Source: a bacterium
Lineage (GTDB): Bacteria; UBP13; UBA5359
Assembly (NCBI GenBank): GCA_028685295.1
Contig: JAQUEL010000009.1
Span: forward strand, 1 to 35,509
Direction: 5' to 3'
DNA: 35,509 bases
Shown here: positions 26,172-32,888 of the stretch, piece after piece
Numbering within the stretch: the first letter of the stretch is position 1
How the letters are laid out: every line of letters begins with the position of its first letter
Position numbers and translations under genes: made by a program
Notes under the pieces: model-generated
What the model was told of the DNA's origin: nothing
Seen by the model: only the letters and a program-made list of their open reading frames with translations
The model's database searches: none

Positions 26172-26210
26172 CCTATTCTATGCTTATATATCTTTGACTT
26201 ATCCCTGCCT

Positions 26211-27176
26211 CTACGTTCCGGACCAGTAAAACCCAAACATTTCACTGATGGAAACGTTCTTGTAAATACGCCGGATTGCCTCGCCCAACATCGGCGCCAC
26301 CGTCAGCACTTTTATTTTATCCAGCATCATCTCCGGAGGAACAGGAATGGTATCGGTAACAAGCACTTCTTTTATTGGTGCCTTCTTAAGGCGCTCAATG
26401 GCAGGTCCTGACAGCACGGCATGCGTAGCACAGGTATATATGGCCTTGGCACCGCAATTCACCAGAGCCTGGGCACCATTGACCAGAGTCCCGGCGGTAT
26501 CTATCATGTCGTCGGCCATAATACAGTTCTTTCCGGCCACCTGACCGATAATTTCGCTGATCTCAGCTTCGCCAGGTTGCGGCCGGCGCTTGACCAGAAT
26601 AGCTAGTGAAGCGCCCAGCCTTTCCGCCATGGTTCGGGAAAGTTTAACTCTTCCTACATCAGGGGAAACAACACAGAGATCGGGTATTCGTTTCTTGGAA
26701 AAGTAATCCACCAGCACCGGCATAGCGGTTAGGTGATCTACGTTAATATCAAAAAAGCCCTGTATCTGGCTGGAATGCAGGTCCATGGTCAGTATCCTGT
26801 CTGCACCTGCTACCGTGATGAGATCAGCCACCAGCTTGGCTGTTATGGGCTCTCTTCCTGTAGCCTTGCGATCCTGTCTGGCATAGCCGTAATACGGAAT
26901 TACGGCCGTGATATGGCGGGCAGAAGCGCGCTTAAGGGCATCTGTCATAACCAAAAGCTCCATCAAGCTATGGTTAACGGGCCTGGATGTGGGTTGTACA
27001 ACAAATACATCGCACCCGCGCACACTTTCTTCCAGCTTTATTCGAACCTCTCCATTGTTGAAAGTCGTCGCCAACGCTTTACCCAGCGGTAGATTCAGAT
27101 AACCGGCGATATTCTTTGCCAGCCTGGGATTGGCATTCCCCGTAAAAATCTTTACTTCCTTGCTGTCAACCTGCAT
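26211..27176 (-). CDS. prs: Ribose-phosphate pyrophosphokinase
   Basis: 'MQVDSKEVKIFTGNANPRLAKNIAGYLNLPLGKA', 'DLHSSQIQGFFDINVDHLTA', 'IMADDMIDTAGTLVNGAQAL'. ATG at 27174-27176; C-terminus 'VSISEMF'. Confidence 0.97.
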   Translation of the reverse strand: MQVDSKEVKIFTGNANPRLAKNIAGYLNLPLGKALATTFNNGEVRIKLEESVRGCDVFVVQPTSRPVNHSLMELLVMTDALKRASARHITAVIPYYGYARQDRKATGREPITAKLVADLITVAGADRILTMDLHSSQIQGFFDINVDHLTAMPVLVDYFSKKRIPDLCVVSPDVGRVKLSRTMAERLGASLAILVKRRPQPGEAEISEIIGQVAGKNCIMADDMIDTAGTLVNGAQALVNCGAKAIYTCATHAVLSGPAIERLKKAPIKEVLVTDTIPVPPEMMLDKIKVLTVAPMLGEAIRRIYKNVSISEMFGFYWSGT

Positions 27177-28539
27177 TGTTTCCCTTCCCCCAATCCCTCG
27201 TTTTAATAGCCCTGGCCGGCATACCGACGGCCACTTTCCAGGGAGGCACATCTTTATTCACCACCGCTCCGGCGCCTGTTACCGCACCATCACCTACCGT
27301 AACGGGAGCTATGAGCTTGGTATCACTGCCAATAAATGCCTCATCACCGACAACCGTATGATGCTTTTTCCGGCCATCATAGTTGCAGGTAATGGTCCCA
27401 GCCCCTATATTGACGTTCTCTCCCAAGCTGGCGTCGCCAATATAGCTGAGATGCGGCACTGCGCTGCCTTTACCTATCTGAGAGTTTTTGATCTCCACAA
27501 AGCTTCCTGCTCTGGATCCCTCTGCCAGCCTATTTCCCGGCCGGAGATAGGCGTATGGACCAATGGCTACGCCATCATCAAGATCGCTGTCCTGGACGGT
27601 ACTGTTCCGTATCTGGACATCTTTACCTAAGCGAACATTGATAAGATGAGCACCGGGACCTATGCTACAGCCTTTTCCGATGGATGTCTCTCCCTCTATA
27701 ATGGTAAAAGGATGAATTACGGTATCCTGCCCAATACTGACGGAATCTTCTATAAATGTGGAGTCGGGATCTATAATAGTGATGCCTTCGAGCATCCAGG
27801 ATTCAAGGATGCGGCTGCGCATGATCTTATCCGCTCGTGATAAATAAAGACGATCGTTTATACCCATAACCTCATTGGAATCGTCAGCTATCAGCGCTTC
27901 CGCCCTATCTTCATCCGCCAGCATAGCTACAACATCAGTTAGATAATACTCTCCCTGGGCATTATCACATCCTATTCTGCCCAGACAATTCAGTAGAAGC
28001 TCCGTATCAAAGGCGTAGACCGCCGCATTTATCTCTTTTATCTTTTGCTCTTCGATATTTGCATCCTTGGTTTCGACTATAGCTTTGACCTCTCCGTCTT
28101 TGCCTCGCACAACCCGCCCGTAGCTACCAGGATCGGCAAGAAGAGCTGACAACATGGCCACACCGACTTCCTTCTCACGCCGAAGCCGACAAAGCCTATC
28201 TATGGTCGCAGCTCTGAGTAAAGGGGTATCTCCCGGCAGGATCAGCGTAGTGCCGTCATAGCCTTTTAGCAGGGGAGCCGCCATCATGGCAGCATGACCG
28301 GTGCCCAACTGCTCTGTTTGCAACACAATTTCAGCCCGGCTGCGGCAAAGAGCCGATACCTGTTCAGCCCCATAGCCGGCGACGACTATGATGCGTCCTA
28401 CTCCCGCTGCATTCAGTATATTCAGAATATGATCCAGAATTGGCCGTCCACAGACCTTATGCAAAACCTTGGGCAAGGCGGATTTCATTCTGGTCCCCTT
28501 GCCGGCGGCTAGAACCACAGCCGTTATGGAAGCGCTCAT
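27166..28539 (-). CDS. glmU: Bifunctional UDP-N-acetylglucosamine pyrophosphorylase / glucosamine-1-phosphate acetyltransferase
   Basis: 457 aa; 'VVLAAGKGTRMKSALPKVLHKVCGRPILDHI', left-handed beta helix hexapeptides, 'GENVNIGAGTITCNYDGRKKHHTVVGDEAFIGSDTKLIAPV'. Overlaps the prs start. Confidence 0.98.
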   Translation of the reverse strand: MSASITAVVLAAGKGTRMKSALPKVLHKVCGRPILDHILNILNAAGVGRIIVVAGYGAEQVSALCRSRAEIVLQTEQLGTGHAAMMAAPLLKGYDGTTLILPGDTPLLRAATIDRLCRLRREKEVGVAMLSALLADPGSYGRVVRGKDGEVKAIVETKDANIEEQKIKEINAAVYAFDTELLLNCLGRIGCDNAQGEYYLTDVVAMLADEDRAEALIADDSNEVMGINDRLYLSRADKIMRSRILESWMLEGITIIDPDSTFIEDSVSIGQDTVIHPFTIIEGETSIGKGCSIGPGAHLINVRLGKDVQIRNSTVQDSDLDDGVAIGPYAYLRPGNRLAEGSRAGSFVEIKNSQIGKGSAVPHLSYIGDASLGENVNIGAGTITCNYDGRKKHHTVVGDEAFIGSDTKLIAPVTVGDGAVTGAGAVVNKDVPPWKVAVGMPARAIKTRDWGKGNNAG

Positions 28540-28565
28540 CAGGAACTCCTTCCCAACACCAATAG

Positions 28566-28585
28566 CCGAAGGAAGGCTCCTTCGG
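28566..28585. repeat. Hairpin CCGAAGGA-AGGC-TCCTTCGG between tRNA-Gln and glmU
   Basis: Perfect 8-bp arms. The T-run lies on the + strand side. Confidence 0.55.
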
Positions 28586-28607
28586 TCCTTTTTCAGCGCA
28601 AAGGGAT

Positions 28608-28681
28608 TGGCTTCGGGGCCAGGATTCGAACCTGGAACCTCGGCTCCAAAGGCCGGTGTGATACCTTTTCACCACCCCGAA
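28608..28681 (-). tRNA. tRNA-Gln (anticodon UUG), CCA encoded
   Basis: Minus strand TTCGGGGTGGTGAAAAGGTATCACACCGGCCTTTGGAGCCGAGGTTCCAGGTTCGAATCCTGGCCCCGAAGCCA. 7-bp acceptor stem, T-arm CCAGG-TTCGAAT-CCTGG, loop CTTTGGA. Confidence 0.96.
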
Positions 28682-28725
28682 ATATCATTGCGCAGTATGC
28701 ATGCCTACACGGCAGACACGGCTAG

Positions 28726-28754
28726 ATTATACTTAATTCGGGGAAGAGTGTCAA
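28726..28754 (-). promoter_or_regulatory. Consensus sigma70/A promoter TTGACA-17-TATAAT for tRNA-Gln (and possibly glmU operon)
   Basis: -35 at 28749-28754, 17-nt spacer, -10 at 28726-28731, about 45 nt upstream of the tRNA 5' end. Confidence 0.9.
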
Positions 28755-28885
28755 TTTTAAAAAACAGAAAAAGAGGCTTAAAGGATACCCTTGAGTCATC
28801 CATCACAGACCATAAAGAATCCTTCTACGTTAATGGCTTTAACGAAGCTAAAAAGGTTGTATGCTGTTAAGGAGCAGCCTTCTTT

Positions 28886-29137
28886 TCAGGCCTTGTTGTA
28901 AGCGTCCAGCACCGCCGCCTGAATCATCTCCCGAGCCTCTGTCGTGATGGGGTGAGCAATATCCTTATACTCTCCCTCTACCGTTTTACGACTGGGCATG
29001 GCTACAAACAGACCGTTTTGTCCTTCGATAACCTTGAGATCATGAACTACGAAAATTTCATCAATAGTTATCGAGACAAAAGCTCTGGTTCGCCCTTCAG
29101 ACTCGATCTTGCGTACGCGAACATCCGTAATATTCAT
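28886..29137 (-). CDS. spoVG: Septation/RNA-binding regulator SpoVG
   Basis: 83 aa '[80 protein letters not shown]'. Confidence 0.98.
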
Positions 29138-29158
29138 GCATTACCTCCTGATATATTT

Positions 29159-29187
29159 ATTATAAGAGTGCCCGCTATTTTTTGCAA
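29159..29187 (-). promoter_or_regulatory. Candidate spoVG promoter TTGCAA-17-TATAAT
   Basis: -35 at 29182-29187, 17-nt spacer, -10 at 29159-29164, just upstream of aggaggt and ATG. Confidence 0.6.
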
Positions 29188-29387
29188 GCAACCGCATTGA
29201 CCAGAGGAATTGAAAGCAGGAAGCGAACCGGCGGCATATCACAGAGAAACGATCGAAAATCCGGGCAATGAGAACACCTTACTTCTCTTGGAGAGGAGAA
29301 CGCCACCTGCAAACAGAGCTTTTCGAGACTGTCAGACACGTTTTGGGCATACATCCAGCCGGACAACAAGAGGGTGTAAAATAATTT

Positions 29388-29924
29388 GTGCTTTTACCTA
29401 ACTCAAATAAGCGCTACATAGAAGAAGCCGGCATAGAGGTCATCAGCAAGGTCAGGGATGACAGCAGTCCTGATAAATACAGCAAGAGCAATTTCGAGAT
29501 AAACCTTGAGCAGAATGAAGTAACCTGTCCGGCCGGACACATCACCAGCAAATACAGCTATGACAAGGATAACAAAAAGAGAAGGATTCGCAGTTACAAG
29601 TTCAAGGCCAGCTTATGTAACGAGTGCCTACATAAAGATAAATGCACCAAGTCCGGTAAAGGCAAAGCCATAACCCTGAATTACCATGAAGCCAAGCTGC
29701 AGAAGGCCAGACAAGATCAGCAGAGCGAAGAGTTTAAAAACCTATATTCCCGCAGGTCTACCGTCGAGCGTAAGGTATCCGAAGAGATGCATCGACACGA
29801 CTGTCGTCAGGCCCGGTGGATCGGCAGGGCCAAGACAAAGCAGCAATTACTGTTGGCGGCGGCTATGATCAATTTCAAGCGGCTGGGCAAAATAGCCCCG
29901 CTGGTGCTAATGCCGACAGAATGA
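29388..29924 (+). pseudogene. IS1182-family transposase, C-terminal fragment
   Basis: 'VTCPAGHITSKYSYDKDNKKRRIRSYKFKASLCNECLHKDKCTKSGKGKAITLNYHEAKLQKARQDQQSEEFKNLYSRRSTVERKVSEEMHRHDCRQARWIGRAKTKQQLLLAAAMINFKRL' is the zinc-ribbon plus DDE C-terminal pattern. The N-terminal half is absent. Confidence 0.85.
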
Positions 29925-30063: not shown

Positions 30064-30500
30064 CTAGTAAACAAGAGCAGCCTGATAAAGCTCTCTCACG
30101 CATTTCAACCAGATATTACCCGAGTCATAACCAAAATGTATATCTGCTATATCTTCATCTTTAGCGGGAAGGAACCAACAGGTTTCTTCTCCCCTTTCAA
30201 AAACTGCACCTAAAAAAGCAGCTATAATACCAGGACCGAAGTTAGGCCAGATAGCTGACAAAGCATCTTCCATGAATTTCAAACATGACTCATAATTCCA
30301 CCTGTCAGCTATAACCGATGAGGTATGAAAAGGTCGTAGAAAGCGGTGAAATCGTATCGTGGCAGAGCCGGCTCCTGCCTGCCTGGAGCACACCCACTGA
30401 TGATTATCTGTATTAAAGGCTGCTTCAGTTTACCTGCCCACCAACGACGACTACGTTCCTTGATACACTCCCAGCGTTCAACATTAAAATCAATGTTTAT
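30064..30500 (-). pseudogene. Uroporphyrinogen decarboxylase (URO-D)-family protein, N-terminal fragment with frameshift
   Basis: 30309..30500 reads INIDFNVERWECIKERSRRWWAGKLKQPLIQIIISGCAPGRQEPALPRYDFTAFYD..; after a frameshift, 30064..~30318 reads ADRWNYESCLKFMEDALSAIWPNFGPGIIAAFLGAVFERGEETCWFLPAKDEDIADIHFGYDSGNIWLKCVRELYQAALV. The C-terminal half is absent. Confidence 0.65.
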
Positions 30501-30586: not shown

Positions 30587-31327
30587 TCATAAGCATGCAC
30601 GATTCAGGACTTTTTCCTGATATAGGAAATTCCCGAATTCGCTCATTCGATGTGCATCAGATCCTTTAAGCAAAGGAACTCCTCTTTTTAAGGCTAATTT
30701 AGCCATTTTAACATCAATCTCTTCAAAGGGGCGATGGGAGTTGATTTCAAGCCCAACATGATACTTCTCAGCCTTCTCTACCAACCATTCTATTAACTCT
30801 TCTCCCACCAATACTTCATTTTCAACCAAAAGGATTCTGAAAGGGTGCGCAAGAACATCCACTTTTCCGCTGGAAAGCAAAGCTATTGTACACCTTTTGA
30901 ACTCCTTTATAATCTCCTTGGGTCGTCTCGTGACAATAGACGGCAAAAAATGAACAGCTCCTATAACTATATCAAGTTCCTTCCAAAAATCTTCCTCAAA
31001 AATCAAAGTGCCGTCCGAATAAACATCCAACTCTATGCCTGATAAAGCGCCACTCTCCTTAACTTCTATAATATATCTCTCTATTTTATGCCTGCCTTCT
31101 TCTCTATATTTCCTCAGTAAATCCTTGAAATCCTCCCTAAAGATACTCCCGGCAAGTTCTTTTGGGAAATAGAGGTGCGTACTATGATCAGTTACTGCGT
31201 AAACGATATTATTTTCTTTCGCCTGTATCCTTAGCTGCTCTAAGGTTATATCCTCACAGCAAGCCGAATAGGAGGTATGCACATGGACATCCAAATTTTC
31301 TTTAAGGGTGATACTTCTATCTTTCAT
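30587..31327 (-). CDS. PHP-domain phosphoesterase (histidinol-phosphatase-like)
   Basis: 246 aa; 'LDVHVHTSYSACCEDITLEQLRIQAKENNIVYAVTDHSTHLYF', 'GIELDVYSDG', 'VDVLAHPFRI', 'GSDAHRMSEFG'. Confidence 0.88.
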   Translation of the reverse strand: MKDRSITLKENLDVHVHTSYSACCEDITLEQLRIQAKENNIVYAVTDHSTHLYFPKELAGSIFREDFKDLLRKYREEGRHKIERYIIEVKESGALSGIELDVYSDGTLIFEEDFWKELDIVIGAVHFLPSIVTRRPKEIIKEFKRCTIALLSSGKVDVLAHPFRILLVENEVLVGEELIEWLVEKAEKYHVGLEINSHRPFEEIDVKMAKLALKRGVPLLKGSDAHRMSEFGNFLYQEKVLNRACL

Positions 31328-31330
31328 TGC

Positions 31331-31557
31331 TTACCGCAGTCTCCAGCACTCATCGATCATAGTCATATAATTTTCCACCGGCATAAAGGCGGCTATGCTG
31401 TTCCCGGAGCCTAAAGCATACCCGCCGGTAGAATAGATGCCGGATCTGGCCAAGGGTAATCGTTAAAAGTCTGCCAATCCTTGATTCGGTTGAAATCCGG
31501 CATCGGCTTTATAACGGTATTTTCAAGGCTTCCATAATTAGACATTTGATGTTTCAT
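31331..31557 (-). pseudogene. URO-D-family gene with internal deletion (N-terminal and C-terminal remnants joined out of frame)
   Basis: ATG at 31555-31557 overlaps the SBP stop. Frame 1 reads MKHQMSNYGSLENTVIKPMPDFNRIKDWQTFNDYPWPDPASILPAGML*; a shifted frame then gives GIYSTGGYALGSGNSIAAFMPVENYMTMIDECWRLR*, typical of the URO-D C-terminal 'GGYxLGSGNSIxxxxPxENYxxM'. Confidence 0.75.
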
Positions 31558-32888
31558 TTTTTCAACCCTTCGTTAAGTAATTTGTTGATTTTATCTGTAG
31601 CATTCAATGCTGCCTGTAATGCCGTCTGTTTTCCCAAATAAGCCAGTTCCAATTCATCCCCGATAATCTTCCGCCACCGGTCGGTAGGAGCATACGGTGT
31701 CAGAGGGCTTGGCACCGTATACTTCACTTCATCCATAAATACTTTATTGTACCCAGCAGGGTGATTAGGATTGTTTAAGAACATATCGGAGTCCGCAACC
31801 TTTTTGATGGCAGGAATGTTATAACCTGCCTTGGCTAGTTCCTGTTCACAATCTCCCACTACCAGGTATTCCATCAGCTTCCAGGCGGCTTCGGGGTGCT
31901 TGACCTTGTTACTCATCACCCATCCAAACGGTCCGGTATTCATATTCACCCGTTTTTTCTGATGCAGACCTGGCGCCACCCCCCATTTGAATCCTTTGAC
32001 TTGCTTCTGCAATATAGGCACATAGAACCTTCCGGCCAGGAACATACCCAATCTTCCTGTCTGAAAAAGCTGTAGTTGATTAGAATTCTGCATATCGCTG
32101 AGAGATGGCATAACTCTATCTTTAGCCCTGAGATCCACCATATATTGGAAGGCTTCAACGGCCTGCGGGCTGTCCAGCAGGCATTTCCTACCGTTAGGGC
32201 TGAAAACACTGCCACCGTTCTGAGCTACCAGCAGAGATATATCTCCTACCAAGCACCCGTATTGCCTAAGTCCGCCCTTACCTATGGTCAATTTACTTGC
32301 CGTCCGCCGAAATTCGTCCCAACTCATACTCTTGGTAGGATAAGATAGCCCTGCCTTATCAAACATATCTTTGTTATAAAAGAGTGTGTAGGCAGGAGAC
32401 CAGTCGGTCCCAAAGCCGTAGAGTTTCCCCCGGCCTATGGTATGGGTTTGCTTTTCGTATTTATACTTGTACAGCACCTGAGGGTAGAAATCATCCAATT
32501 TCAATACATTACTTTCGGAGATATATTTATCCAGCGGTTCCAGCGTATCTCTCTGCACATAGGCGGGGATATAATCCGGTGCCAATCTGAAGACGTCAGG
32601 AGGGGTGCCCCCGGCTATCATAGTCATGAGCTTGGCAAAATAATCCTGAGTAAACCATGTTTTTTTCACTTTGATATCCGGATTCTGTTTCATGAATTCA
32701 TCAAGAGATTTATCGATGATCTGGCAACCTACATCAGAGGGAGAATAGCCGCAGGCTACGGTGACAATCATCTTGCCGGACTGCGTATCTCTCTTTCCGC
32801 AACTCGTAAGGGCCGCTAGTATCCAGATTATACATATTACGGTCAAGCCGTAGAGGAATTTTCTTTTCATTTCCTTGTTTATATACAC
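31554..32888 (-). CDS. Extracellular solute-binding protein (family 1, sugar ABC transporter) lipoprotein
   Basis: 444 aa; 'LTVICIIWILAALTSCGKRD' lipobox; 'LMTMIAGGTPPDVFRLAPDYIPAYVQRDTLEPLDKYI', 'YTLFYNKDMFDKAGLSYPTKSMSWDEF'. Start may be the internal M at MKRKFLYG. Confidence 0.9.
   Translation of the reverse strand: MYINKEMKRKFLYGLTVICIIWILAALTSCGKRDTQSGKMIVTVACGYSPSDVGCQIIDKSLDEFMKQNPDIKVKKTWFTQDYFAKLMTMIAGGTPPDVFRLAPDYIPAYVQRDTLEPLDKYISESNVLKLDDFYPQVLYKYKYEKQTHTIGRGKLYGFGTDWSPAYTLFYNKDMFDKAGLSYPTKSMSWDEFRRTASKLTIGKGGLRQYGCLVGDISLLVAQNGGSVFSPNGRKCLLDSPQAVEAFQYMVDLRAKDRVMPSLSDMQNSNQLQLFQTGRLGMFLAGRFYVPILQKQVKGFKWGVAPGLHQKKRVNMNTGPFGWVMSNKVKHPEAAWKLMEYLVVGDCEQELAKAGYNIPAIKKVADSDMFLNNPNHPAGYNKVFMDEVKYTVPSPLTPYAPTDRWRKIIGDELELAYLGKQTALQAALNATDKINKLLNEGLKK

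Follow-up and report, generated by a model that had tools for sequence, protein, structure and literature searches.

The 227 nucleotides between the genes for an extracellular solute-binding protein (SBP) and a PHP-domain protein are very probably a pseudogene, left by the erosion, through multiple deletions, of a URO-D gene in what was probably an operon of the order SBP > URO-D > PHP > URO-D-like. The window, that is, the whole 35,509-nt stretch of DNA that was analyzed, corresponds to contig C52 in a draft genome comprising 2.0 Mb in 127 contigs; G001 and G002 are relatives from the same genus. Directly visible in the DNA are the blocks and gaps of the relic, its frames, the intact flanking genes, the relatives, a second relic, and an insertion sequence (IS) remnant. 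We favor the pseudogene reading because the blocks are ordered, the gaps recur across relatives, the junction can be read in two frames, a second relic and an IS remnant are found nearby, the locus is species-specific, and a split homologue exists elsewhere in the genome. The three blocks have counterparts, in the same order, in an intact subfamily found in a sister genome and in others.

Read on the minus strand from 31557 to 31331, the relic encodes MKHQMSNYGSLENTVIKPMPDFNRIKDWQTFNDYPWPDPASILPAGML up to a stop codon in one frame and GGYALGSGNSIAAFMPVENYMTMIDECWRLR up to a stop codon in another. Its ATG (31557-31555) overlaps the TGA of the SBP gene (31556-31554) as ATGA, and its TAA, which ends at 31331, is separated by 3 nt from the PHP ATG starting at 31327 (TAA-GCA-ATG). 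The initial annotation had described both URO-D ends within 227 nt in different frames, the ATGA overlap, and the stop 3 nt from the PHP ATG; the minus-strand reading bears out all of this, coordinates included. A 48-codon ORF is left, together with a tail of 31 codons in another frame that stops 3 nt short of the PHP start. Two marks of a pseudogene are present: the frame is disrupted relative to intact homologues, and the gene is strongly truncated in comparison with them, with conserved genes on its flanks.

Features of the decayed cluster and its neighbors (positions in the window)
Feature	Positions	Strand	Description and basis
SBP gene, upstream	31554-32888	-	Extracellular solute-binding protein (SBP_bac_1), intact, 444 aa; Pfam; relatives 71-78% identical
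URO-D-superfamily (MtaA/CmuA-like) pseudogene	31331-31557	-	227 nt left of ∼1,030 nt; frames, blastx against shuffles, alignment
Block A, native N terminus	31486-31557	-	MKHQMSNYGSLENTVIKPMPDFNR; approximately residues 1-25 of relatives
Block B	31435-31485	-	IKDWQTFNDYPWPDPAS; approximately residues 99-116 of relatives; IKDWETFEKYTWPDPGS in L131
Block B2	31417-31434	-	ILPAGM; conserved (V/I)LPxGM, exactly VLPAGM in L127
Junction, putative direct repeat	31417-31426	-	GGCGGGTATG, 10 nt; readable as (P)AGM and GGYA; inferred from two overlapping frames
Block C, native C terminus	31331-31426	-	GGYALGSGNSIAAFMPVENYMTMIDECWRLR and stop; 74-77% identical to the G001 and G002 genes
PHP gene, downstream	30587-31327	-	PHP-domain protein, intact, 246 aa; Pfam
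Second relic, URO-D-like gene	30073-30500	-	Two frames (30500-30405, 30351-30073); blastx to L137; C-terminal half or more missing
IS1182-family transposase, C-terminal third	29388-29924	+	NF033551, positions 326-485 of 488

In blastx searches with the 227 nt, alignment to an intact relative gave 59 bits (E 1e-15) for the C-terminal part, and the N-terminal parts scored up to 36 bits; none of 500 dinucleotide shuffles exceeded 28.5 bits. Both ends resemble URO-D relatives far more closely than expected by chance, as had been claimed. Whole-genome searches with the C-terminal part found matches in G001 and G002 (E ∼1e-11), a 352-codon frame in the former and, in the latter, a gene at a contig edge. 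Pfam recognizes neither fragment on its own, and the URO-D identity of the relic therefore rests on the intact relatives, which match PF01208 (URO-D) above its cut-off; their matches to the MtaA/CmuA models (TIGR01463 and NF004889) are weak and lie far below the cut-offs. These relatives comprise ∼340-360 aa, have the same N terminus, motifs, and C terminus, and occur in a sister genome (candidate phylum UBP13, UBA5359) as well as in many other phyla.

With this uncharacterized, MtaA/CmuA-like subfamily of the URO-D superfamily (PF01208), the relic shares the N terminus, the motifs IKDW..YPWPDP, LPxGM, and GGYALGSGNS, and the C terminus, and apart from the Pfam result on the fragments, its remaining parts match members in sequence. 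In contrast to intact members, it lacks ∼263 of 340 codons, including most of the barrel, and its frame is broken. The central motifs DDxGFK, LHSCG, and DAKHSYED, which fall within 179 missing codons, are absent together with the complete barrel. The N-terminal part matches the native N termini of intact genes. We also considered that block A might derive from the interior of a URO-D gene and begin at a spurious start codon, which is ruled out by the presence of SLEETCIKPAPDF at the N termini of the relatives themselves.

Counterparts of block A in intact relatives are SLEETCIKPAPDFD, SLEQTSIKPAPDFNR, and TLEDTVIRPEPDFDR. The residues PDFN-R at its end run straight into block B, whereas the two segments are 73 codons apart in L124, L125, L126, L127, and L131. 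This first gap (219 nt) is in frame and has the same length against all five. Block B2 is preceded by the second gap, again in frame, of 11 codons (33 nt). At the third, the motifs LPAGM and GGYALG overlap by 10 nt but are separated by 179 codons in relatives; ∼547 nt are therefore missing, and the frame is shifted. These lengths (73, 11, and 179 codons) are found repeatedly among relatives. Remaining and missing sequence together amount to ∼1,026 nt, or 341 codons, in agreement with the 343-359 codons of the intact genes, read between stops. Three internal deletions have reduced the gene from ∼340 to 75 codons, a loss of ∼78% of its length. The single clean interior loss described in the initial annotation does not fit this pattern, as the N-terminal part is itself made up of two to three blocks and there are three gaps; its figure of ∼900 bp from a ∼350-aa gene correctly conveyed a large loss, which we place at ∼800 nt of a ∼340-aa gene. 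One open URO-D relative in G002 (L132, 1614-2534, contig C521) lacks 32 codons inside the interval of the first gap.

The third gap is most simply read as a deletion bounded by direct repeats of ≤10 nt, of which one copy, the 10-nt junction, would have been left. Given the GGYA-coding sequence, the chance of finding LPxGM in the other frame is 0.00085. In distant relatives, short repeats at this junction were not confirmed, the shared stretches being 4-6 nt only. The absence of additional stops from the blocks suggests that the loss of the URO-D gene is not old.

Both flanking genes are full-length in comparison with their relatives, with amino acid changes well below the saturated silent changes; for the SBP, a sugar-binding protein, dN is far below dS. 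The PHP gene has full-length copies of 66% identity in G000:C84 and G001:C18. From its tight packing, the cluster can fairly be inferred to have had the ancestral order SBP > URO-D > PHP, as proposed in the initial annotation; neither the two sister genomes nor 80 loci with intact URO-D relatives, however, yielded an intact example. Comparison with the sibling genomes thus yielded intact relatives, such as the 352-codon frame of G001, but not the intact gene order. A PHP gene of the same type or a close SBP gene stood beside intact URO-D relatives at 0 of the 80 loci. The PHP paralogue adjoins a regulator and a TIM-barrel gene. The SBP family comprises several copies of 71-78% identity across G000, G001, and G002, all in other and mutually unlike contexts, and L061 (4650-4936; G000:C85:22649-22935) holds a relic of another SBP gene copy in two frames.

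The second relic, which the initial annotation did not mention, lies beyond the intact PHP gene, between it and the IS1182 remnant. It matches residues 11-42 and 49-151 of the 370 in L137 (E 1.6e-11), where a gene of its family directly follows a URO-D relative. "URO-D-like" is a weak label for this family, because Pfam gives it no more than a subthreshold URO-D match, in L143. The IS sequence extends to ∼30069, judging from the repeat ends in G002, and there the second relic is cut off.

Over positions 26200-29191, the two sister genomes share 94 and 79% identity with the window; in both, the similarity ends at 29191; past this point, beside spoVG, each species carries different genes. Therefore, the decayed cluster lies within a species-specific patch by spoVG. 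The 166 nt at 29202-29367 are 95% identical to G002:C427:3039-3204 and 88% identical to G000:C68:7128-7311, compared with 79% for core genes between species, and probably form part of a mobile element. Two other loci, L059 (G000:C84) and L060 (G001:C18), are 99.6% identical over 5.6 kb between two species, with 84-94% in other regions, which reflects either cross-binning contamination or recent transfer. In the right part of the window, a tRNA-Gln is the only Rfam match.

The draft state of the assembly, with its 127 contigs and its many URO-D paralogues, raises the question of whether the intact gene is present in the genome and its interior was merely skipped by the assembler. A homologous URO-D gene was indeed broken elsewhere: contig C44 begins with a fragment that the C-terminal part of the relic likewise matches, and the N-terminal half of that homologue sits at the edge of contig C11. 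The homologue of the G001 gene is therefore split by a contig gap but probably intact. An artefact at the relic, however, would need three separate ordered gaps, and a collapse calls for a long near-identical repeat at the junction. The visible repeat of at most 10 nt is too short to mislead an assembler, the best-matching DNA elsewhere in the genome shares only ∼75% identity over 84 nt and is too different to collapse, and the neighboring URO-D-like gene has decayed independently. Therefore, the assembly collapse put forward as an alternative in the initial annotation is highly unlikely.

The reading frame is preserved across two of the three deletions, an observation that counts against the pseudogene account and might point to a phase in which selection kept the frame open. 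Accordingly, the remnant might persist, after loss of the enzyme, as a short translated linker through which PHP translation is coupled to that of the SBP, with selection holding the first two deletions in frame. The 48-codon ORF is placed for translation from the SBP stop, with the ATGA overlap and AAGGG ∼8 nt 5′ of the ATG, and TAA-GCA-ATG leads into the PHP gene. However, this ORF ends ∼83 nt before the PHP ATG, such a short ORF is conserved in no relative, and the tight layout is inherited from the full-length gene. We regard a linker function as extremely improbable, and there is just as little to recommend its proposed route, in which ribosomes leaving the SBP gene translate the 48 codons and reinitiate toward PHP with a weak-looking ribosome-binding site.

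We conclude that the relic is a genuine pseudogene formed by ordinary bacterial gene decay, which will not surprise a specialist. The ancestral operon would have comprised the SBP gene, a gene for a URO-D-family methyltransferase-like protein, the PHP gene, and a second URO-D-like gene. At least three internal deletions would then have eroded the first URO-D gene, two of which kept the frame (219 and 33 nt) and one of which shifted it (∼547 nt), the latter probably via slippage or recombination between the short direct repeats (≤10 nt). An IS1182 insertion may have cut the second relic. The order of these events is provisional. Enzyme activity was presumably lost, while the flanking SBP and PHP genes stay open.

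Erosion of bacterial pseudogenes by deletions is documented (Kuo and Ochman 2010, PMC2916853). Like the relic, the pseudogenes of that study show broken frames and deletions, with conserved genes on either side; they mostly carry single inactivating mutations, with few losses above 20%, whereas the relic lost most of its length by several deletions. Positions 31331-31557 should be labeled as pseudogenic, and the URO-D-like genes on both sides of PHP appear to be dead in this genome. The relic is a readable case of stepwise deletion in UBP13, an uncultured lineage whose species differ widely in URO-D gene number, with 6, 9, and 37 family matches (E ≤ 1) in G000, G001, and G002 of one genus.
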